64,000 nt of DNA from Tremella fuciformis. Taxonomy: Eukaryota > Basidiomycota > Tremellomycetes > Tremellales > Tremellaceae. The DNA lies in NCBI GenBank assembly GCA_032768795.1, contig CP136491.1:2480001-2544000 (forward strand). Reading direction: 5' to 3'. Positions 1-34,207 of the stretch are shown in pieces (positions within the stretch are counted from its first letter, which is position 1; the number at the start of each line of letters is the position of its first letter). The position numbers were made by a program, and so were the translations under genes. The notes under the pieces are model-generated. The model saw only the letters and a list, made by a program, of their open reading frames with translations. It searched no databases and was not told the origin of the DNA.

Positions 1-250
1 ACATCCTCGAACCCCCCTCGGAGCCTCAGGCCGGGCTTCAGCTCGTCCTTCTCGGCGCTTTCGTCCTCGACGACCGGCACCACCCGGATCCGCGCCTTGT
101 CCTCGGGCGCAAGGGTCTGCCGCGCCAGCTCCTCGACCATGCGGGGGTACGGCTGGGGATGGCACACCGCGGTCAGGTTGCATCGCGGAGAGAGGCGCAG
201 GAAAGTCAGGCCTGTGCGAAGTGAAGCGCGCAGGCGGCCCCTGTTCCATG
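1..250 (-). CDS. Possible 5' part of an unidentified gene, cut by the window edge
   Basis: The minus strand stays open from about 230 to position 1. One frame reads as a charge-balanced protein containing the segments CHPQPYPRMVEELARQ and KPGLRLRGGFED. There is no in-frame ATG at its upstream end, so it would have to follow an intron (a CACAG acceptor lies near 215). A second frame does start with ATG near 265 but is very rich in Arg, Gly and Ala and looks like a shadow of GC-rich DNA. I do not recognise the family. Confidence 0.3.
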
Positions 251-865
251 AGCCACCTCCCGGGTTGGCTTGAGGGTAGGACAACACACCAGCCCGGCGC
301 GGGGATAAGTACCAGGTGAGGCGTGTCCGTGTTGCTCGTCATCGTCGAGAAGCGGGTGCATCACCGTCCGCCTGCATCTCTCTCTGAGTTATATCGGGAC
401 ACTCGGTCGCGGATTCGGTTTGCGAAATCATGCTACTGGACACTAGGTATCGGTGTCGCGTGAAACACCACCGCATGACATCATTCAACGCGACTGAATT
501 TGATGAGATGGGTCTCGCTTATAGCAGGCCGACTCCGTTCGCTTTCCGGACCGGTATCGATATCGGCCCCATCTAATCAATGCCGCTCTGCAACTCCCAG
601 CAGTACAATTAACTTACCACGTCGCATGAACAAAAGACTCATACAGCTGACGGGGTCCAATTACCCCGACGCACTGACCGTCCATGCGTGTGTCCGTGTG
701 TGTGTGTGTGTGTTGCCGATCAGTGATGGGCGTTTCAAGGAGTATCGCCGATCAAGGTACCCTCGATCACCTCCGTGTCGCCGAAATCTCGTTCATGCGC
801 ATGTTCATTGAGCGTTGACATTGTCAGGTCGTCGGAAGGCGTTAAAAAAGTGACAACACTGCCAC
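251..865. other. Intergenic, no gene seen
   Basis: Only short frames with no protein-like composition. It holds a TG dinucleotide run (listed separately) and the upstream flank of the tRNA-Val 3' end. Confidence 0.5.
696..713. repeat. (GT)n microsatellite
   Basis: About nine GT units in a row, directly visible in the sequence. Confidence 0.8.
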
Positions 866-950
866 TGATCTCGGGCGGGCTCGAACCGCCGGCCTCCCGC
901 GTCTTCACCACGTGTGAAGCGGGCGCTATGACCAACTAAGCCACAAGACC
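866..950 (-). tRNA. tRNA-Val (CAC) with 11-nt intron
   Basis: The minus strand folds into a full cloverleaf. The acceptor GGTCTTG pairs with CGAGATC (with G-U pairs) and A is the discriminator. The anticodon stem is CCCGC/GCGGG, and the T arm is GGCGG-TTCGAGC-CCGCC. The loop reads TT-CAC-A, giving a valine anticodon. An 11-nt intron follows position 37, the canonical place for eukaryotic tRNA introns. Total length is 85 nt. Confidence 0.9.
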
Positions 951-1723
951 ACCGCCTGTGGACGGTGTGCCTGCGACGTGATCACTGGCGGCATGGCTTC
1001 CACCGTCCGTGCACCGTCCGTGCGAAACAATAGCAACAACACGAACCTCGTTTCGCGAACAATACGAACTCGACTTGAACATCGCCCGAAGTGCATACGA
1101 CTTGTTGTCCGCTAGTGATCAGTGCGGGCTCCGTGTCCGAGCGAGACCTTTTGTGCACGTTTCTCACTCAGGTCGGATCGGATGATACAGAGCCATGGCG
1201 ATGGCCTTTCCACGCCCATCACTCAAACGACTCTCTGCCTCGATGCAATATCATAGGTTGCAAACCGGGAATCAAGCAGTAAGGTCATCGACACACGATG
1301 CGCAAGGGCTACACAGTCAATCACGGCCCTACAGGCTACGAGATCGAGAGACGGACATCCAGTAGACGCTGCGACGGTTCACCGAGACATGGACCAACAA
1401 CAGGCCGCAGACTGAGGATAATCTGCGCTCGACGCGAGATGAGCGGAGCGCCGAGCTTGTTGATCAGCCGACCTCGGACCCGTCACAACCGGCACCGTTC
1501 TACCCCGTTCGCCCTCATTCTTAGTCACCTATTGCATCGACGCCGATGGCGTGTTAATCATGTACACCACCCGAGCGGCGTAAAAATTGCCAAAATGGCA
1601 ATTATGCAGTGTCTCTCATCTATTAAGAGGCTATTTTGCAGTCTGAGCACCTGCACTCAATTGCCCTCTTGTTCTCCTGTGCATAACTTGAGTTTCCTAC
1701 ACGCTATGATCCCTTGCATGGCT
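951..1723. other. Intergenic, no supported gene
   Basis: A 185-codon plus-strand frame covers much of this stretch (1298-1855). It is Arg/Ser/His-rich, has no domain and overlaps an antisense paralogous gene fragment, so I do not accept it as a gene. Confidence 0.5.
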
Positions 1724-2031
1724 CTACGCGGCCGCCCCAATGCCCTGCCTTCCTCTGCAGAGCAGCTGCGGCCTCTGTCCTTTGGTCGCGACGCCCTTTC
1801 GCTCAAACGACCTAAGCCCGACAACCACAGCCATCACGGTGAGGGCGATCGTTGACCCCACGAGAAATGGACGCTGTCGCAGCTGAAAGAAGTTGGCAGC
1901 CTCCTGGAGACGCCGTCGTAAACGGAGCTGACCGGTGATGCCGCCATAGAGGTAGCGTCATCGTTCTTGGGGTGTGAGAGCAGAGCGATAGGCATGTACA
2001 CGGCGCGAGCAGCATGCATCCGGCGCTCCAC
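1724..2031 (-). pseudogene. Partial paralogue of the neighbouring small membrane protein
   Basis: The minus strand reads KNDDATSMAASPVSSVYDG, closely resembling DDDDATSTAGSLVSSVSNS in the gene at 2062-2542. The DNA also shares stretches such as AACGGAGCTGACC. If a short phase-0 intron (weak GTCTCC donor, GACAG acceptor) is removed, the frame continues into a hydrophobic segment, GSTIALTVMAVVVGL, and a basic tail ending at TAG 1724-1726. This is the same architecture as the neighbour. The upstream part matches nothing in the neighbour, so this is probably a truncated tandem copy. Function is unknown. Confidence 0.4.
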
Positions 2032-2061
2032 AAGATCATAACGCTACATGGTGTCCAAATC

Positions 2062-2542
2062 CTACGACCCCGCCGTGGCCGCCTTCGCCTCCGCTCTCGG
2101 CGCCAGCAGTTTCCGCTTGCGATAATAGTGCACCGCCAACCACCCGAAGAACAGCGCGGCAGTCACCGAAATACCGATGATCACTGGATGTGAGCGAGGC
2201 CCACGACGCACTCAACGCCCGCATCCGAGAAGGTAACGAGCGGGGATGGGGCAGGCGACACCCACACCCGATTGTAGTAGTCGACATCCCCTTGACCTCG
2301 TTATCCACGCTATTGGAAACGGAGCTGACCAATGATCCTGCTGTGGATGTCGCGTCGTCGTCGTCTCCGCCAAACAGGGCGATAGTCGTCGAGCCGATGG
2401 TGCCGCTCGTTCCTGTGTACGCGGTGGCCGTGATGTCTCGCGGCCGTGGCATGGTCCCTGGCTGCTGGCTGCAGATTGTTGTGGAGGCAGGCGGACGACT
2501 AGCGAGTGCGGCGCGGGGAGCCGCCGCCGGCGCTACCGCCAA
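2062..2542 (-). CDS. Small Ser/Thr-rich single-pass membrane protein, 5' end unresolved
   Basis: The first part is Ser/Thr/Gly-rich with a run of four Asp, as in an extracellular stalk. An intron with a GTGGGT donor and ATCCAG acceptor (about 2190-2270) joins it in phase to one strong transmembrane segment, VIIGISVTAALFFGWLAVHYY. A basic cytosolic tail RKRKLLAPR follows, with stop TAG at 2062-2064. The first in-frame ATG is near 2452, but protein-like sequence continues upstream to about 2540, so an upstream exon is likely. A second, shorter copy lies directly downstream. The family is not recognised; a cell-surface role is inference from architecture only. Confidence 0.45.
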
Positions 2543-2811
2543 GGAAGGGCGAAAGGATTAGCGTCAAAGGAGCCACAAACGAGCGTCCCGGATGCCAGCT
2601 GTGCGGTCGTGTGAGAGGTGGTGATCCTTTTGACCAGAGTCTCACGGGCACAGCCACGCATGTGACCCTCTGGTCAGGCATCATGAAAGGTCATATGCAT
2701 GGTCGGAGGCTTACGTATGTACAACACTCGATCTCTTTAGGTGGTCATTCGCTCGCTCGGAGTCGCTTGGTGATTCGTGGGTCGAGATCGGCATGGCTTG
2801 TGCTTCCCAGT

Positions 2812-3911
2812 CTACCTAGACTGCTATGGGTATCAGCTATGATCCACAAACAAGTAGATGGGCGTACCCACATGCCGGGTCCGGCGGGACCGCCAACTCT
2901 GGTACCGTTCGGCCCCCCTTCGCGTCGACGTGAACGCGCGTCAGTCTGCGGGCGTCGGGAGCCGCTCTTTGACGCTTCGGCACGTCTTTCCTTGGCTTCT
3001 TGGGCAAGCTGCGCGGCATAGCGTTCCTCTTGTCGCGCCTTGTACAGCTCCAATCGTACGGCCTCGGTGGCTGTGGCCAACTGCGTCACTCGGATCTCGT
3101 CGTGGAGCGCTTGAAGCAGATTAGCGGCGGTGATAGCCCTTATGCGTCAGCATGTCCCTTCGCTACATGGGCAAGCGTACCAGTTCTGGACGCTGGTATG
3201 CAGGGTTGGGAGAGCGTTTGGGCGCACGTCCCGCCCGGCGACCCAGTCCACATGCAAGATCTTCCCGTGATGGTACATCTTGCCCGCAAGCAGTCCGGCG
3301 TTTATGACATCGATGATGAGGTCCTCGAGCGCTCGCTCGCAGGACATCTCGAGAGCCCCCAGGAGCTCAGTGTAAGGCAGGGTCTGTCGCATCAGCTGTT
3401 CGCCGAGCAGGCCGAGGGCTGCGTACACGATTGTGGCTCGCCAGGGTCATCAGCGTGAGGTGTTTGAGCTTTGTCTCCTGAGCCGGCGATAGAGCAGGGA
3501 AGGAGGAGGACCGTTCTGCAAGTTATCCGCGAGCCCGAATCGCATCATGGCATCACGGACCCCGATAGTGGACCCAGATACCATATGCGAAGAGATGGAG
3601 CAGCGCAAGAGGTCGGCCCTCGTCGACGTTGGCGAGCTGACCGTCAGCTGCGTCCCATAGAGTTGAGATGAATAACCTTACCTCTTGAATGCTGGGTACG
3701 TCCAAGAGCTCCGCGAAGACGTAGACACCGGGCTGTGCGTCAGCTCGCCTGCTCCTCCTCCTTTGGACATAAAGAGAGGTATCCACAAGTGGGATGAGGG
3801 GGAACGTACCGCTGACGTGGCGTCTGTCGCAACTTGGGCCGCTGCCGCTCCTCTTGCGCTCTTTGCAAGTAGGACGAACGGCTCCAGCTTGGCCGAGAGG
3901 TCGTTGTTCAT
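2812..3911 (-). CDS. CSN7: COP9 signalosome subunit 7 (PCI domain)
   Basis: CSN7 is a scaffold subunit of the COP9 signalosome, which removes NEDD8 from cullins in the nucleus and cytosol. Six exons can be joined in phase from ATG 3909-3911. The N-terminus reads MNNDLSAKLEPFVLLAKSA and PGVYVFAELLDVPSIQE. The core reads FPALSPAQETKLKHLTLMTL, then LPYTELLGAL and ALEDLIIDVINAGLLAGKM, then HVDWVAGRDVRP. This is the winged-helix part of the PCI domain as known from CSN7 and eIF3/proteasome relatives. A C-terminal coiled coil (TEAVRLELYKARQEERYAAQ) follows, then a basic tail, ending at TAG 2812-2814. The start lies 189 bp from the divergent BRD8-like gene. Confidence 0.8.
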
Positions 3912-26291: not shown

Positions 26292-26296
26292 GCATG
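26292..26296. repeat. Target-site duplication GCATG, left copy
   Basis: The same five bases occur at 32234-32238, directly outside the right inverted repeat and in the same orientation. Confidence 0.8.
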
Positions 26297-26317
26297 TACG
26301 GCGTCGAGATCGTCCCA
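26297..26317. repeat. Left 21-bp terminal inverted repeat
   Basis: Begins TACG and continues GCGTCGAGATCGTCCCA. The reverse complement of 32213-32233 begins TACC and continues with the same 17 bases, so 20 of 21 match. Confidence 0.8.
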
Positions 26318-26483
26318 TCGGCGTTTTCTTTTCTCTCAACGCACACTTCTCTTTTCATGATGTACATTGAATGAACTTCTACGGCTTGTTCGACTGCAAG
26401 ATGCATCAACTGTGCTCAGCTTGCCGAGTGACACTCACCATCTTCCCCCCAACCTTGCATGAACATTGTGCTGCTCAATCAAT

Positions 26484-29033
26484 ATGACCAAGTGCAGCTC
26501 CTGCAATTGTGATCGTCCTGCCATGCCCGCCAACAGTGATGTCTGCGGGCTTTGCAAAGCGATGGCCATGGCAATGGACAAGCCTCAAATGCTGCCAATG
26601 GTGACGGGTGTGAGCAATCTCTGTCAGCTTTATGCAAAAGGCTGACTTTAGCTACGTGCTCGCTGCTGTCAACAGTGCGGGGCTTTTGGTCTTGCAGATA
26701 TAGATGGCACATCAACCGATCTTTGGACATGCCCGGCATGCAACACTCCTGGTATGCACGTTCTGGGCAGCAATAGCCGCACAGCACCGGTTTACCAACA
26801 GATGTTTCCGCACACCCCCGTTCTTTTGGAGCCATTGCAGAGGAGCGTCAATCAAATGCAGCTTCTCGGCAAACTTTCAATGCCCTCACTTCCAAGCAGA
26901 TCATCAGCAGTCGCGCAACTCGCAAAGCTGGCATGGATCAGGGTGTTCCTCATCATCCCGCGGTGAAAATCAGTGTCTTTGTGGCCGGTAAGTGGTGTGT
27001 GGCAGTGTTTCCTGCAAAGCCTGATGCATCAGACTCTTCTAAAAAGCCTCGACCTTGGAATTACCAGGTGCCGGACCTTCACCCAGATTGGAACATGCTC
27101 GTCAAGGAGATGCTGCTGGCTGCATGGGAGAAAGTGGTTGTCTGTTGGAATGGGCCCGGTCAGGGCTTTGCCACATATGGGTTTGAGCTAGTCTAGTCAG
27201 TGTTCCCTCTCCTGAGAAGGGATCAAGGCGTTAACATGCAAGCGGGTTGGCATCAAAGGCTTTGCACGACAAAGCCGGCAAGCCTGCTATTCTTGACAAC
27301 GACTTTGAGGAGGGTGACCTGCTTCTTGCGACATTCTTTCGCAAACGTTTCAAGCCAAAAGAAGGCTTCTACGGAAAACCTTTAGACGTTGCACATGGAT
27401 ATATCCACCTCATGTTCACTGTTCGGCCAGCTGTTCTTACACGGGTGTGTAATGTTGGCAGATTGCTTATCTGTAAGCTGACCAGCAGAAGCGGGGCCAT
27501 AGTCCTGATTCTTCTGTCGAGGATCTCACACCAATCAAGTTGCTGAAAGGGGCCAAAAGCATGTCCGTGTCAACACATACCTCCCAGACTGTCAATGAGC
27601 TTCTTCCGTCATACATCACCAACAGTAAGTCAGAAGATTTGGGAAGACAGCATGCTGATCAGCTTAGCACTTCCCCCCTCGCAAAGCCTCTTTCAAAGCA
27701 TGTTCATTCCTTCAACTTCTCGAGCTCGGAACAGCGGCGGACAAATTGGGCCAACTATCCCCAGTGGCTTTGAGAAGGTTCACATCCGACGGATCTATCC
27801 CCGCTTTGTAGAGTTGGAGGACAACATTGTCAGAGTCGGGCATGATATTGTGGAGGAAGCTTTTGTTGCAAAGAAGCATTTTGCCGAGGGTATGTTCAGG
27901 CTGGCATACAAGGTGAGTTGTGTGTACAGAATGGCAGTGTCTGATAGCTCTTCAGATGCGGCTTGCCAGCAATACAGAGACTCATTGGGTGGCTAAACGC
28001 TATTTCACAATGCAAGCCACGCTCCAGGCTCCATTTTCGATCACAAACCCTAAAGCTCCACTTGACGAGGATCAGCAGCTGCATCTCAACTGGCTTGATG
28101 TGACCCATGGTGTCTATCTTGCTCGGTCCCTTGACGAGTTCCTGGGGGGGCTGAAGAGGAAGAAGAACGCTCGCACTGCACACAGTGAGCCATTCAATTG
28201 CAGCAGCAAGGCGACTCATGGGCCAGGCTTTGGGATCACCCCATGTTTCATTGCCATGGAGTGCTCTCGAGAAAATGGCCTGCCCTTAAGGAGCTGGTTG
28301 ATTGAGCCCGACCTTTCTGTTGCCCCTCCTGGACACTATGTCCGCGAACAGAAGTTCTTCGGATCCTTTTACGAAGGCATCCAACGGCAGACCACGCAGC
28401 CGGCTCATGAGGAGTATGTGCCAATGGTACTTCAGCAAGAGCTACATGCGTGGCTGCATTATCATTTTGAGAAGGCAACAAATGGAGAATGCGTTCCAGC
28501 AGATATACAAGGTATGTCGCGTGACTCTTCAGTGGCTATGCTAATGTCAGGCTTTGTGTATTGGCCCAATGAAGCAGCCAGGTCTCGTAATATAGGAAAG
28601 GCAACAAACACCTATCAAGTCAGGCTTTTTGATCTGATGGCTCACTCGTTTGTTGTCATCAAGCACCCATCAGCAGATAACTGACCAGACGCGTAGCTTT
28701 GCTCGAACTCTTGGCCCAGGTGATGCAGGCAATCCCGGGGTGAAGGCATTTCTTTATGGGCACAAGTGCAATCTGGTCTGCAAGGAGGCCAAGCTCAAAC
28801 CTTTCACCGACCCATCTGAACTCCTTTATGAGTATGTGTGTGATCCAGCAGACATTCCATTTTGGCGACAAGAGGAAGGAGAAGCAGAATTGTGGCAGAG
28901 CAACCCGGAGATCAGTGAGGCCTGGCGGAAAACAGGTCAGTGTGTGTATGACCATATCCCCATTGGCCCAAGACCACCTTCGGCTTTGATATGTGAGGTA
29001 CTGGATTTGAACGAGCCATTTGGGCTGAAATGA
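26484..29033 (+). CDS. Alpha-kinase-like protein with N-terminal zinc clusters (transposon-borne)
   Basis: Exon 1 from ATG 26484 encodes a Cys cluster (MTKCSSCNCDRPAM, then CGLCK). A GTGAGC intron joins it to a second cluster (CCQQCGAF, then WTCPACN). The C-terminal part matches alpha-kinases (MHCK/EF2K type): FTMQATLQAPFSI, HGVYLARSLDEFLGG, FIAMECSRENGLPLRSWLIE, HAWLHYHFEKA, VPADIQG (catalytic-loop DxQG), RLFDLMAHS, then GPGDAGNPGVKAFLYGHKCN and LVC, where His/Cys residues bind zinc in the family. Several introns interrupt it; junctions near 26930, 27490 and 28510-28720 were not all resolved. Stop 29031-29033 if the last intron is not used. Alpha-kinase genes are expanded in basidiomycetes. 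Activity is inferred. Confidence 0.65.
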
Positions 29034-29111
29034 CGCGTCTATGCATGTCTTTTGTGCTGAACGCGTCCTGCACAGGCATGGTGCTTGTTTGACAAAGTTG
29101 ACATAATATCT

Positions 29112-30726
29112 ATGTTATGCACCGCCCCTGAATGGGCGACTAGCATGGAGGATCCCATCAATTGTTTCTTCTCACCTACCTCATATCCCACAAATATGTC
29201 TATCCCTCGAAACCAAGGCAAGCACGCGCCAAAGATTCACTCAGCTGTTGACCATGCAGTTGATCCCAAGGACGATACCATCATACTACAAACCTTGATC
29301 AACAAACATCATGGAGTTTTCAAGGCAATCAATGACGAGTTGAAACAGAAGTATCCTCATCTGTCATTTGGGTACGCATACACTTACCCCAATATATTGT
29401 AAACTCATCTCAGCGGGAGGTCTACATTCTTTCGACGCTTAGAGCAGCTTGGCATCGAGGGGTATAGAAAGGCTTCTTTACGAGGAGCAGACCTGGAACA
29501 AGCACTGACGTTGCTCCCGCTCTACCATCAAGGACGAGGATTCCGTGGTTCACAGCATGCTTTGAGCCTTGTCGGAGTCCACACAACTCAGTGAGTACAC
29601 TGAAATACAATGGAGCTCACAGCAGAGCTGCCGTTCTACAAGCTTTACGCCATATGGACCCAGCTGCCCTTGTTGCTCGACAGCTTGGGCAAAAGGGCCG
29701 TACTCACCGATGCCCTATTGTCTCGGCAGGAGCAAATGAGCAGTGGTCAGTTGACGGACATGATAAACTGTCAAAGCATGGGTTTGGGATATACGGCATC
29801 CGAGATGTGTATTCCGGCAAATTCCTTGCCCTCCATGTGTTCCCCAGCAACAGACTTGCGTCCAATATCAAATGGTTGTTTCTTAAGACCGTACGAGCAA
29901 CTCATGGTGTGTAACAACAGAAGAGGGTGCATATGCGGCTGATTAGAACAGGCTTTCCTGTGCAGATTGCCGCAGACAGAGGTTCGGAATGTGGGCTCAT
30001 GTTTCAATGCCAGGCGCATCTTCGGTGAGGCGAAAGACTACCGTGCTCTGTCCTAAACGTACTGCAAGGGCTGAAAAGGCAGAACAACTTATTCACACCA
30101 AGATCTCAGCGAGATTCCCTCCCATATTCAACTGCCATCAGTTCGCAACATCACAATTGAGCGTGCATGGGGTGTGATCTGCAAGGAGATAGACAGACTT
30201 GTGGAGAAGAAACTTGACGAGGGGATGTCCGGGGGATTTGTCCCGACAAATGGAACTCACAGGTGACCTTCTCTCTCATTCTTCCGCATGCTTGTCAGCT
30301 TGCCGCCAGCTCACAGACAGTGCATTGTTCTGGTGGATATTTGCACCACTGCTGCAAGAGACTCTCAACGAGCACTGTCTTTTTCACAACACGTACAAGG
30401 TTCGAAAGCAGCGTGACAAACTGAATCCATCTGGAGGTCGGCGAGAAAGCTTCTGGGCAAATCCTCAGCATTGGGGAGGAGATCAATGCCTACAATCTAT
30501 ACCGCCGGAGGAGGAGGAGAATCTGTTACAATGTATGACAGACATAGAGGCGGACGGTCATCTCCAGTGGCTACCTGTTGCGGCTAGCAACTTGCTGGAA
30601 GAAACAAGGCTTGGTCTGGGTGCTACATGCCCGCCTCTCAGGTGGGAAACGGCTTGGGAGGTGTTTTATCTTGTACTACCATGGGTTCGTGACAAACTCC
30701 CGCCCCTTATTGAACACGAGTTGTGA
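29112..30726 (+). CDS. Integrase-core (DDE) transposase of the element
   Basis: Five exons are joined in phase over most of the gene. The N-terminal part (LQTLINKHHGVFKAINDELK, FFRRLEQLGIEGYRKASL) looks like a DNA-binding region. The catalytic core is retroviral-integrase-like: first Asp in EQWSVDGHDKLSKHGFGIYG, second Asp in QIAADRGSECGLM, Glu in VRNITIERAWGVICKEIDR. The C-terminal part (WWIFAPLLQETLNEH, YKVRKQRDKLNPSGG) matches a basidiomycete family annotated as integrase core proteins. Introns begin near 29372, 29591, 29907 and 30028. The junction at 30262-30296 does not keep frame in my reading. The start is the first ATG; an upstream exon from 29076 is possible through fusion with the kinase. 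Confidence 0.7.
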
Positions 30727-30752
30727 CGTGGGAACCTGTCAAGATTTGTACA

Positions 30753-32150
30753 TCACTCATCAAGTATATGAATATCGTGGTCAGCAAGTCCAGCAAAGAC
30801 CCCCTCTGTGATTGTTCCATCCAAGGATTTCCCAACTAGGTTCTCCATGTGCCGACAGGTGTAGAACACTGCCGTCACCCTTTCCTCTGTGACGCTCCCA
30901 GCACCCAGACCATGGTGAATGAGGGATCTTGTTGGTGCAATGATGGCATCGCCAGCACACAGTTTGACATCAAGATTGAGCTGGGGAAAACGGGTGAAAG
31001 CCGGAGGACCGTCCAGCTGGACAATGAGGGAGGGGATCCCGGGGGAGTCATTGGTATCAAGGTGAGGCTTTCGAGCTTCCCCATAACCAAATGCCACGCC
31101 TGAGGCCAGACCGCCAAATCGAAGTTGTTGATTGAGTGGCTGAGTGTTGTTGGCATCGGCAGCAATGTTGGCAAAGTGACCAACATGGAAGGCATAGTCG
31201 GTGGTGGTGGGATCCAGCTTTGCATAGTAGCGTCGGATAGGTGTTGCTACCAGCCGGTCCAAGGTGTTGGTGAGGTGATATGCAGCTTGACGTCGTCGAA
31301 GCTCTGATGAAGCCGGCTTGTGCAGAGCCTTCCGAGCTGATTGTAGGGTGTCTTTGGTGGTGCCCAGTGTGTTGCTCTGCCGTTTGATGATGGCAAAGTG
31401 GTAAGGGTGGAAGTGATTGTCGGAGTCATGTGTTGTCCGGCTCTTTGTCTTGGGAACATGCTTGCTCGGACCATATGAATCGAATCTTCGAAAGGCTCCA
31501 AGGATCTCCCTCCGACTGGCCCGCCCAATGATCTTCTCTAGGCGGATAATGTGATAGGGGAGTGTCAAATGGGAAGAGCGGATGGCTTGATTGCCAGGGC
31601 CAGCAATAACTTGTCGAGGGATGTTTGCGTAGGCAAGCTGAAGCTCTTGCAGTGTAGCATTGACTCGTTGCGAGCTGCGTGGGTGATTTGCATCAAGAAA
31701 GCGGTGGAGAAGCTCAAGGAGCACCGGATTGCTTGGCTCTGTGAAGGTCGTGACGTCGAGAGGGTGTTTGTTGAACACTTGTTCCGAGTAGAGGTGCCGG
31801 GAGGGGCGAGGGTTTTTCCTAAGTCCAGTCAGCCTTGACCTCGGCACAGGATTTTGGCATGGCTTCGCCTGGCCCTGCAAGGGGCAGTGAGGGAGAGATG
31901 GATGACGAAGAAGCCTGGTGATGAGCAGAGAGCGTACTCACTTTGCCCCTCCTGGCACTCCTTGCACTCCTTGGTCTATCGGTCGCGCTTGTTTGCTCGG
32001 GCGGTCGCTCGCTCGTTTGCTCGGGCGGTTGTGGCTGCGTTTCAATGCATGGCGGGTCAGGCCAGAGGCATTGCCATCAAGGGGGGGAGCCGGGGATTCA
32101 CTGGTCTGCCCCCCCTGTCCCTTGGTCGTGGATGTTGGTGAAATGAGCAT
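30753..32150 (-). CDS. TET/JBP-like 2-oxoglutarate/Fe(II) dioxygenase (transposon-borne)
   Basis: Exon 1 runs from ATG 32150 to 31942 (a basic Ser/Arg/Pro-rich leader). The intron 31819-31941 has a GTGAGT donor and CTGAC branch with TTAG acceptor. Exon 2 runs 31818-30753, and the joined frame is 424 codons plus stop. Without this splice the long frame has no Met before its C-terminus, so the intron decides the start. The C-terminal double-stranded beta-helix shows the metal ligands HxD in ARKPHLDTND, His in RSLIHHGLG, and the 2-oxoglutarate Arg in EERVTAVFYT. Fungal TET/JBP proteins oxidise 5-methylcytosine or thymine. Substrate here is inferred. Start lies 63 bp inside the right inverted repeat. 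Confidence 0.65.
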
Positions 32151-32212
32151 TGGCGGAGGCGAAGAGGCGAATGAACGAAGTGAACGGACGGGCGAAAAAA
32201 TTTCAACCGGCG

Positions 32213-32233
32213 TGGGACGATCTCGACGCGGTA
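32213..32233. repeat. Right 21-bp terminal inverted repeat
   Basis: Reads TGGGACGATCTCGACGC followed by GGTA, the inverse of the left repeat with one mismatch. GCATG follows at 32234-32238. Confidence 0.8.
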
Positions 32234-32235
32234 GC

Positions 32236-34207
32236 ATGCCTCTCTGCCCTGTCTGTGGTGAAGATGTCGATGCGGACTCGCATGCCTTCCAGTATCATGT
32301 GAACAGCCACCTCGATGAGCCCTCCTCTTCTCGCCCCCGCCGACCGACACCGCCCGGACCAAGCAGACCTCACTCGCCCCCGCCTGCCTTCGAAGACACT
32401 TCAGCAGCTTGCATAGTCTGTAGCTATCCCCTGGATGGACTGCCCGCGGAGCAAAGGCACAGGCATGTGAATACGTGTCTTGGTGCGTACCCGCTCAAAC
32501 ACATGGCCCGTGAGGGAGGCGCTGAGCAACAGACGAGGGGTTCCGGGCCGCCCGGCCTTCCGATCCTGCTGCAAATGGCAGCTTTGCACTCCAGACAATG
32601 AGGGCGGATGAATTTCACCAGGACCGCGATCTGGACTGGAGTCAAATGATGGAGGAGCAGCCTCGCGATGACGACTGGGTAGAGGTGGAATGGGATGGAC
32701 CGGCGAAGCCAGGCGGATGGCACGGATGGGTGGACAAGAAGCCTCACAAGGGCGACGGATGGTACGTCTGGGTCTGACCACAATACTACATAGCTCATCC
32801 CCTAAGGTGGGACCCTGTCACATCTTCCAGCCGGACCCGCGACATTCCCAGCAACTTCTCGCCTGGGCTGCTAGATGTCATGACGGATCTCCTGCGAAAG
32901 TCGATTGTGCAGGGAAACACTCGCTCTGCTGTTCTTTGCCGATATACGGTGCACATGAAGGGGTATTGGATGTTTGACATGGGTGAGCGAGGTATCAATG
33001 CCGTCATATTGTTCGCGGCGGTGTAGGTCTCGTGCTCATCGCCAGGCTGGGGATGTGGCTATCGCAATGCGTTGATGGCGCTCTCTTCCCTACTGGCCGC
33101 ATGCCCTGAATATCGTCCGGCCTTTTCTCGAGATCTCAACGGAGCAGACCCCGGTGTTCGTCGATTGCAAGGCTGGATAGAAGAAGCTTGGGGAGCCGGG
33201 CATGACCCGCCAGGCCGCGCGCACTTTCGAGGTAAAGTCCTCGGGACGCGCAAATGGATCGGCACTTCCGACCTGTACGCCATGTACACCTACAAAGGGG
33301 TCCCGTGCAATTTGTACGACTTCCCAAAGGCGAAAGATAAGGAGAAGACCTCGAAGGCCAGCTGGCATCTCCAACAATACGTCAAGGAGTATTTCTCGGA
33401 TCGCCCACCCAGGCCGAATGGCGCCAACGCTTTCGACATGCTCATGCGGGTAAACGAGGGCGGACAGGGCAGAGGCGAGGCTGTGCGCCGGTCGAACAAG
33501 CTCCCACTCATACTACAGGTCAGCTATGTCGCTGCCAGTAGTCCACCTGCCTTGGCTGACAAGCAGCATGCCGGTCACTCGCGTACCATCGTCGGGTACG
33601 AGGAGACCACAGGTGGCACGATCAACCTGTTGCTCTTCGATCCAGGCAGATCCGTCCCGAGATCTCTGCGATCCGAAGCCATATCCCGCCTGGCGGGCCC
33701 GCCCAAGGCAAAACCCAGACTACAGACCGAGCCGGGTCTGCGGAGATCCCTGACAGAGTCGCACGAGACACTGCGTTTCTCCCGGCCGTACAGCAACGGG
33801 GCCTCGGAAATCATCACACCGGTCCTCGAGGTCACAGTGCCTCCTCGGGATGCCAGCGGGGACGATGAGGTGAACAGATTGAATGGCGGCAGCGCTCTGC
33901 TCGAGTCCGACGAGGAGATTGACCAAGGTGGGTGGGTCAGGAAGAAGATTGCGAAGAGTGTCAGGCGGGCCATAGGTGGGGTGACGGGGAAACGCAAGGA
34001 GAGGGAGGAGGTTGGTGTGGACTGCCTGGACAAGTTCCGGGTGGGCTTGGGAGGACTCAAGTGCATTCACTCGCCTTTCTCACTCGGAGACCGCGCTGAC
34101 TGTTCAGCTGGAACTCGGAGTTTCAGGTTTTGGCATTCACGGGCGGGCCGCTGCTCACTCCTTCACAGCGAGAGCAGAGGAAAATTCTGAGCAGCACGGT
34201 AAGATAG
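32236..34207 (+). CDS. UFM1-protease-fold (C78/ZUP1-MUG105 type) cysteine peptidase with zinc fingers
   Basis: The N-terminus has two C2H2/C2HC-like fingers (MPLCPVCGEDVDADSHAFQY, then ACIVCSYPLDG with a distal His). A plausible third segment around 32610-32780 is joined by introns. The peptidase core shows the catalytic Cys in GWGCGYRNALMALSSLL (created by splicing near 33030), and His and Asp in AGHSRTIVGYEET and LLLFDPG. The C-terminus (EFQVLAFTGGPLLTPSQREQ) is spliced on at 34067-34107. ZUP1 cleaves Lys63-linked ubiquitin chains in genome maintenance; fungi keep this branch without UFM1. The start ATG lies inside the transposon target duplication, and the frame stays open into the transposon to 31918, so a chimeric leader is possible. 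Confidence 0.75.

Follow-up and report, generated by a model that had tools for sequence, protein, structure and literature searches.

A 64,000-nucleotide window of the Tremella fuciformis genome (assembly GCA_032768795.1, contig CP136491.1, positions 2,480,001 to 2,544,000; coordinates below are those of this whole stretch unless a contig is named) contains, at 26297-32233, a real DNA transposon that has been mobile recently and that exists as two subfamilies. As the initial annotation had proposed, the element carries genes for an alpha-kinase, an integrase-type DDE transposase and a TET/JBP-like dioxygenase; the first two are recognized by Pfam (PF02816 and rva_4), the third through its motifs and indirect homology only. 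We consider it likely that this is an autonomous cut-and-paste transposon of the IS3EU/GingerRoot kind that combines a 5-methylcytosine-oxidizing dioxygenase with a helper alpha-kinase. That the trio is inherited together and useful to the element is suggested by selection on its genes and by its recurrence in three lineages. Genome-wide searches covered the genome that contains the window (28.14 Mb, 11 contigs), and the search for the trio was confined to this genome.

The ends of the element are terminal inverted repeats of 21 nucleotides with one mismatch, TACGGCGTCGAGATCGTCCCA at 26297-26317 on the plus strand and TACCGCGTCGAGATCGTCCCA, read on the minus strand, at 32213-32233. They are separated by 5,895 nucleotides and flanked by a 5-base-pair (bp) target-site duplication, GCATG, at 26292-26296 and 32234-32238, in exact agreement with the repeats and flanks described in the initial annotation. 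The shared 17-base core that it pointed out is likewise exact in both arms and occurs at no other place in the window. With up to three mismatches allowed, shuffled sequences contained a mean of 0.31 matches to this 17-mer, and two matches were reached in 2 of 100 shuffles; in the whole genome, with up to two mismatches, the 17-mer was found at 34 places compared with 4 for the reversed pattern. Exact matches numbered 13, and 10 of these form inward-pointing pairs that delimit five elements of ~5.94 kb. Further copies with the same ends, gene trio and 5-bp duplications had been suggested as a check on the annotation, and the source genome thus yielded five full-length ones, located on contigs C1, C2 (the window), C3, C4 and C8 and present in both orientations.

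The left end and the right end are each the same in all five copies, with termini TACGG..GGTA, and each copy is flanked by a perfect 5-bp target duplication (CAAGG, GCATG, CACGA, ACGTG and GCCGC, all given for the orientation seen in the window). No difference separates the window copy from the copy on C3 across 5,937 bp, the copies on C1, C4 and C8 are mutually identical at a length of 5,942 bp, and the two groups are 91.8% identical to each other. Because copies within a group are identical and each has its own 5-bp duplication, the element has transposed recently, as two subfamilies. A chance inverted repeat is ruled out by ends common to five copies that bear target duplications, and a segmental duplication or host gene cluster by the spread of the copies over five contigs, with a distinct 5-mer duplicated around every one. 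Across the other lineages and non-autonomous relatives described below as well, 5-bp duplications flank 13 of 13 insertions for which both ends were located (in L021, CCACG/CCACG); a 6-bp duplication is ruled out, as the sixth base matches one side in 3 of 13 insertions and the other side in 4 of 13.

Gene models were assembled manually, using open frames and introns of the GT-AG type. The alpha-kinase gene (26484-29033, plus strand) has nine exons (26484-26609, 26652-26751, 26802-27180, 27243-27444, 27486-27624, 27668-27912, 27956-28511, 28551-28647 and 28697-29033) and encodes 726 amino acids that match PF02816 (expect value (E) 1.1e-9, 39.1 bits, cut-off 21.3). Besides this domain, the protein has the other hallmarks of alpha-kinases, namely the lysine, GN and HxCNxxC motifs (WVAKRY, 27986-28003; GNPGV, 28728-28742; GHKCNLVCK, 28758-28784). 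Its N terminus contains two pairs of CxxC, and its matches to eEF2K, MHCK-A and TRP kinase in the PDB are weak (E 0.17-1). The transposase gene (29196-30726, plus strand) has six exons (29196-29371, 29414-29590, 29623-29906, 29952-30024, 30083-30262 and 30321-30726) and encodes 431 amino acids that match rva_4 (PF24764; E 1.3e-12, 48.2 bits, cut-off 26), with a catalytic triad, assigned by motif, of D162, D221 and E263. No integrase structure was matched when its sequence was compared with the PDB. The alpha-kinase and integrase-type DDE identities are firm as sequence-based predictions.

The dioxygenase gene (30753-32150, minus strand), assigned by motif and by homology to its dioxygenase counterparts in two further elements, lies tail to tail with the transposase gene. 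It consists of a core open frame of 394 amino acids (30753-31937) and a candidate first exon (31942-32150) whose splice is uncertain in the hand-made model. A single-exon gene is ruled out by a stop after GGAK, so a splice is required and the 27-bp gap in our model is a placeholder. The starts of all three hand-made models fall between the ends, in line with the initial annotation. Its description of three intron-containing genes is borne out for the kinase (eight introns) and the transposase (five), but the third gene can have no more than one, and the 27-bp intron of the model is too short to be credible.

None of the three gene models is interrupted in either subfamily. Between the subfamilies, the ratio of nonsynonymous to synonymous divergence (dN/dS; Nei-Gojobori method, applied to the hand-made models) was 0.134 for the kinase, 0.106 for the transposase and 0.145 for the dioxygenase, with dS values of 0.212, 0.232 and 0.216, respectively. 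Substitutions fell mostly in third codon positions (27/16/95 at positions 1/2/3 in the kinase, 13/12/59 in the transposase and 16/7/65 in the dioxygenase). All three genes of the window's lineage are therefore under purifying selection, and the open frames, third-position bias and low dN/dS indicate that the trio has been jointly inherited and kept by selection since the subfamilies split.

The same trio was found in two further lineages in this genome. One of them, a sister element 6,165 bp long, has 23-bp ends (TACGGTGGCCCGTTAGTTTCACG) and termini TACGG..CCGTA and is present as two copies without any difference (C1:2515240-2521404, comprising L073 and L071, and C8:1341104-1347268, comprising L074 and L072), with target duplications CAGTG and GCAGC. 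Its kinase, transposase and dioxygenase (FHRDTRD) genes all lie on the same strand, with the dioxygenase gene beyond the 3' end of the transposase gene. A third element of 6,868 bp (C1:5708373-5715240, comprising L076, L069, L068 and L075) occurs as one copy, with ends TACCGCGTCGA[A/G]TTGGTGCCAAAAT and the duplication TACCC; here the kinase gene and then the transposase gene lie on one strand, and the dioxygenase gene follows past the 3' end of the transposase gene on the opposite strand. In these two lineages, identity to the window's proteins is 59-62% in core segments of the transposase, 25-43% in segments of the kinase and 26-30% in the dioxygenases. Close to the 5' part of its dioxygenase gene, the third element has a 74-bp stretch with 86% identity to that of the window, the protein cores being only ~26% identical.

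Fourteen protein relatives of the transposase were found, including ones from Tremella mesenterica and from Agaricomycetes. A tree of 16 fungal rva_4 proteins groups the transposases of the window and the third element with two T. mesenterica sequences (support 99/98); this group is nested in a wider Tremella group (100/100), separate from five Agaricomycete sequences, which makes a Tremellomycete host probable. The root of this tree serves for drawing only, and long branches were flagged by the tool. Within the genome, 17 more distant transposase matches (26-34% identity) were also found, none of them located at a kinase match.

All eight complete copies found with this kinase and transposase also carry a dioxygenase gene. 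In an alternative reading, the kinase and dioxygenase are chance passengers between the ends, irrelevant to the element. Passenger capture is common in transposons, and five non-autonomous relatives (L014 and L018-L021; 553-2,923 bp), perhaps mobilized by the autonomous elements, have ends of this type, likewise flanked by 5-bp duplications, and no match to any of the three proteins. Against this, purifying selection on the kinase and dioxygenase genes nearly matches that on the transposase gene, and the trio occurs in three lineages despite the distance between their kinases and between their dioxygenases. We therefore regard mere passengers as very improbable and favour a trio that serves the element. 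One locus tells against a constant trio: L015:3997-9775 (C5:2351722 to the contig end) has the window's 24-bp end and a kinase of 35-46% identity, and it gave no transposase or dioxygenase match, though the element runs off the contig end. The same locus holds other open frames, one with a DGSCMFRA motif that we take to be OTU-like. Single ends were seen on C10 (L016 and L017), with weak matches to the transposase (26%, E 8.5e-4) and dioxygenase (36%, E 0.008) near the end at L017, and further one-mismatch ends at C1:8327358 and C7:1443280.

The third protein is probably a TET/JBP-type 2-oxoglutarate- and Fe(II)-dependent (2OG-Fe(II)) dioxygenase. Its C-terminal region contains, in order, PHLDTND (31047-31067, including HxD), FPQLN...AGDA, SLIHHG (30909-30926, including the distal histidine) and RVTAVFY (with the arginine in EERVTAVF, 30864-30887), an order that we take to be that of a two-histidine-one-carboxylate 2OG-Fe(II) dioxygenase. 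The pattern HLD...H...R is conserved across four related sequences. BLASTP matched the window protein to the dioxygenases of the two other elements at E 1.8e-9 and 5.2e-8 (for a search space of one sequence), and none of 200 shuffles reached either pair score. The sister's dioxygenase in turn matches Pfam Tet_JBP at E 0.0012 (18.5 bits, under the cut-off of 34.9). When a profile of eight sequences plus fragments (A2) was compared with the PDB, the only matches up to E 10 were two Naegleria Tet-like dioxygenases (E 0.23 and 0.32), with the HxD and the second histidine aligned in register, and the third element's dioxygenase alone retrieved the same two sequences (E 0.08 and 0.12).

Several results weigh against this assignment. 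The window protein has no match to Tet_JBP, and its sole Pfam matches are unrelated and below cut-off (NCAB1, E 0.0056; FdhE_N, E 0.06). Profile comparison by hhalign with the dioxygenases of the two other elements gave probabilities of only 30% and 45%, the Naegleria matches (E 0.08-0.32) are not significant on their own, and a sequence search of the PDB returned nothing for the window dioxygenase, for alignment A1 or for the sister's dioxygenase. AlphaFold models built from 4 and 8 rows were unusable (mean pLDDT, the predicted local distance difference test, of 32.5 and 39.4), and Foldseek searches with them found nothing at E <1, with 3 and 18 matches at E 1.6-10. It is because motif and indirect homology agree, a direct family match is absent and structure prediction failed that we call the TET/JBP-type assignment probable. 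Wider searches were also sparse: the 204-amino-acid core matched nothing in Pfam at E ≤1; 0 of 7,996 scored candidates were related in a protein search with the dioxygenase alone (E ≤0.001) and 0 of 7,998 in one with a four-row dioxygenase alignment (E ≤1); no match was found in viral contigs; and the third element's dioxygenase had one match in PHROGs, phrog_24024, annotated as of unknown function (E 1.4e-4).

The same evidence bears on the substrate. The protein could be a 2OG-Fe(II) enzyme that is no DNA-base oxidase and whose target is instead a base in RNA, a protein or a different modified base. Consistent with this, the window protein has no direct Tet_JBP match, the third element's dioxygenase shows a weak match to the WelO5 halogenase (E 0.15), and Kojima leaves other activity possible for the PU and PE types in the accessible text of that paper (PMC12730594). 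We nevertheless consider it unlikely, since the sister homologue reaches Tet_JBP, the A2 profile finds in the PDB, up to E 10, only the two Naegleria Tet-like proteins, whose HxD and histidine align in register, and this gene, like published TET genes, is found repeatedly in transposons. The TET/JBP-type dioxygenase that we favour resembles the PU, AG and PE types of transposon TET/JBP proteins in its two-histidine-one-carboxylate motif, in its location inside DNA transposons and in being shared with a Helitron-like element. Unlike the PE type, for which the accessible text of PMC12730594 gives HxE in place of HxD as the hallmark, it has HLD, and the PE type is therefore excluded; with no Pfam Tet_JBP match, it is set beside the PU and AG types by description only.

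Two dioxygenase relatives with 63% and 62% identity to that of the window were found in sequences (L027, from C1:2381400; L028, from C1:4690936) that are 99.4% identical to each other over positions 1-3,663 of the retrieved sequence and diverge thereafter. Upstream, beside the dioxygenase relative, lies the end of a Pif1-type helicase (PF21530, E 2.6e-7). Their shared end comprises a GC-rich hairpin and CTAG (-31.4 kcal/mol for the last 68 bases of L027, with RNA parameters), which we take to be the 3' end structure of a Helitron, the one end that was seen. The presence of a dioxygenase relative in such a Helitron-like element fits the passage of TET genes between transposon superfamilies described in the accessible text of Kojima 2025 (PMC12730594). 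Both sequences also contain a small extra open frame without a Pfam match. Elsewhere, L029 (C9:410936-411431) holds a degenerate, stop-containing copy of the dioxygenase gene, in pieces 65-78% identical, and the third element's dioxygenase also matches C2:3627642-3627872 (36%, E 4.1e-9) and C2:3119574-3119795 (35%, E 2.5e-4), one of them near the contig end; these two matches may represent further TET-like genes in the genome.

Coupling of a TET/JBP gene to a transposase has precedents of more than one kind. Iyer et al. in 2014 are said to have reported that TET/JBP genes travel with KDZ transposons in basidiomycetes; the Tremella element couples such a gene to a transposase likewise, but the transposase differs. 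Among KDZ elements, the duplications measure 8 bp for Zisupton and Dileera and 7 bp for Kyakuja, as given in the accessible text of PMC12730594. The same source describes TET-carrying IS3EU families from seven Pucciniales species and one from Tuber indicum (Kojima 2025), which means that the coupling of a DDE transposase, a TET/JBP-type dioxygenase and an alpha-kinase is itself already known from rust fungi and a truffle. The initial annotation had seen in this coupling a separate transposon group, which is partly wrong in that the coupling had already been described. Among the papers cited here, as far as their text was accessible, only that one reports the trio; its main text, as distinct from its supplement, mentions neither 'Tremell' nor 'Cryptococcus'; nothing on the trio appeared in the accessible text of a paper on Cryptococcus transposons (PMC12810828) or in a listing of Tremella methylation literature. 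What is new is the host, probably a Tremellomycete, together with duplications of 5 bp in place of 6 bp, a different arrangement of the genes and a dioxygenase unrecognized by Pfam.

In all TET-carrying IS3EU families, according to the accessible text of PMC12730594, the TET/JBP gene lies between oppositely oriented transposase and alpha-kinase genes, and those of Pucciniales have 6-bp duplications, repeats >30 bp and ends of the form TAYGG..CCRTA. The Tremella element is like them in combining the three genes (the third recognized indirectly) and in its TA..TA ends; its left end, TACGG, fits TAYGG, whereas its right end, TACCG, does not. It is unlike the Pucciniales families in its 5-bp duplications and 21-bp repeats (23 bp in the sister), and unlike the published gene order in having kinase (plus), transposase (plus) and dioxygenase (minus) genes, with the last at the far end. 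For IS3EU/GingerRoot in general, the accessible part of PMC10045372 gives an integrase-like DDE enzyme, TA..TA termini and duplications that are usually, not absolutely, 6 bp. The window element has an integrase-type DDE enzyme and, like its sister, TA..TA ends; the 5-bp duplications at every one of the 13 insertions speak against membership. IS3EU membership is thus not proven, because duplication length, repeat length and gene order depart from the family despite the shared gene set and ends. These departures, including the right end outside TAYGG, would be explained if rva_4 transposons with 5-bp duplications formed a eukaryotic superfamily of their own, but this seems rather unlikely to us given the TA..TA ends, the gene trio shared with TET-carrying IS3EU and the sister's ends, TACGG..CCGTA, which fit the published TAYGG..CCRTA (PMC12730594).

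As an IS3EU/GingerRoot-like transposon, the element would use its DDE enzyme to bind the 21-bp ends and insert at staggered 5-bp cuts, a mechanism suggested by the family, the duplications themselves being observed. The product of the reverse-strand gene, as a 2OG-Fe(II) dioxygenase, would oxidize 5-methylcytosine in the DNA of the element itself, which may relieve its silencing by methylation, and the alpha-kinase may phosphorylate a host or element protein, favouring expression or transposition.

The ratio of observed to expected CpG is 0.62 in the element compared with 0.99 in the rest of the window, and is 0.60 in the sister and 0.61-0.84 in L018-L021. Between the subfamilies, transitions affect 10.1% of CpG cytosines compared with 2.7-5.2% of those at CA, CT and CC. 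We infer that this loss of CpG is a trace of methylation. The host has a cytosine-5 DNA-methylase gene (L077, C3:1694400-1696200), examined as four translated pieces: against PF00145, one passes the cut-off (E 2.3e-7), two stay below it and the fourth finds no match; a second DNA-methylase match lies at C1:7103433. The accessible text of PMC11185503 names Dnmt5 and DnmtX as methylases of Kwoniella. The CpG depletion and the methylase gene would fit the anti-silencing role that the initial annotation had suggested and support it indirectly. Base composition (GC 0.51 in the element versus 0.57) may also explain the CpG depletion. The evidence for transcription concerns the transposase of the third element, not the window's own copy: a 423-amino-acid protein (P0001, source code 'lgn', from a 1,356-base contig) equals that transposase at 423 of 423 residues after removal of six GT-AG introns, and an intron-less sequence from an intron-bearing gene points to an origin from RNA. 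A broader history is a tentative proposal, to which we give somewhat less than an even chance: a Tremellomycete transposon lineage may have kept the three-enzyme set since before it split into the three lineages seen today, its TET/JBP enzyme being of a fourth type that bears HxD, escapes Pfam and has also passed between this element and a Helitron of the same genome, with the dioxygenase and kinase acting as an anti-silencing module.

The insertion in the window lies exactly at the start of a plus-strand frame of 121 amino acids (32236-32601), the ATG of which (32236-32238) is inside the right GCATG, and thus between this frame, which has zinc-finger-like CPVCG..H..H motifs, and a minus-strand frame with its ATG at ~26054. 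Among the matches listed, TTAGGGGG repeats lie at the ends of C1, C2 and C3; the total is 455 places, compared with 0 for the control. The accessible texts give TAAC(4,5) as the repeat motif of Cryptococcus and Kwoniella (PMC11185503), and TTAGGGGG as likewise proposed for Agaricus bisporus (PMC10100673).

Transposons with their own enzymes against methylation silencing would allow the conflict between mobile DNA and epigenetic defence to be tested directly. As the copies are identical within groups, the gene models open and a host methylase gene present, the methylation and activity of the eight located copies can be measured. The kinase accompanies all TET-carrying IS3EU families in the accessible text of Kojima 2025 (PMC12730594) and recurs here in three lineages, with selection measured in that of the window. 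The alpha-kinase family is described as highly expanded in rusts in the accessible part of PMC4469406, an expansion that such transposons might explain.

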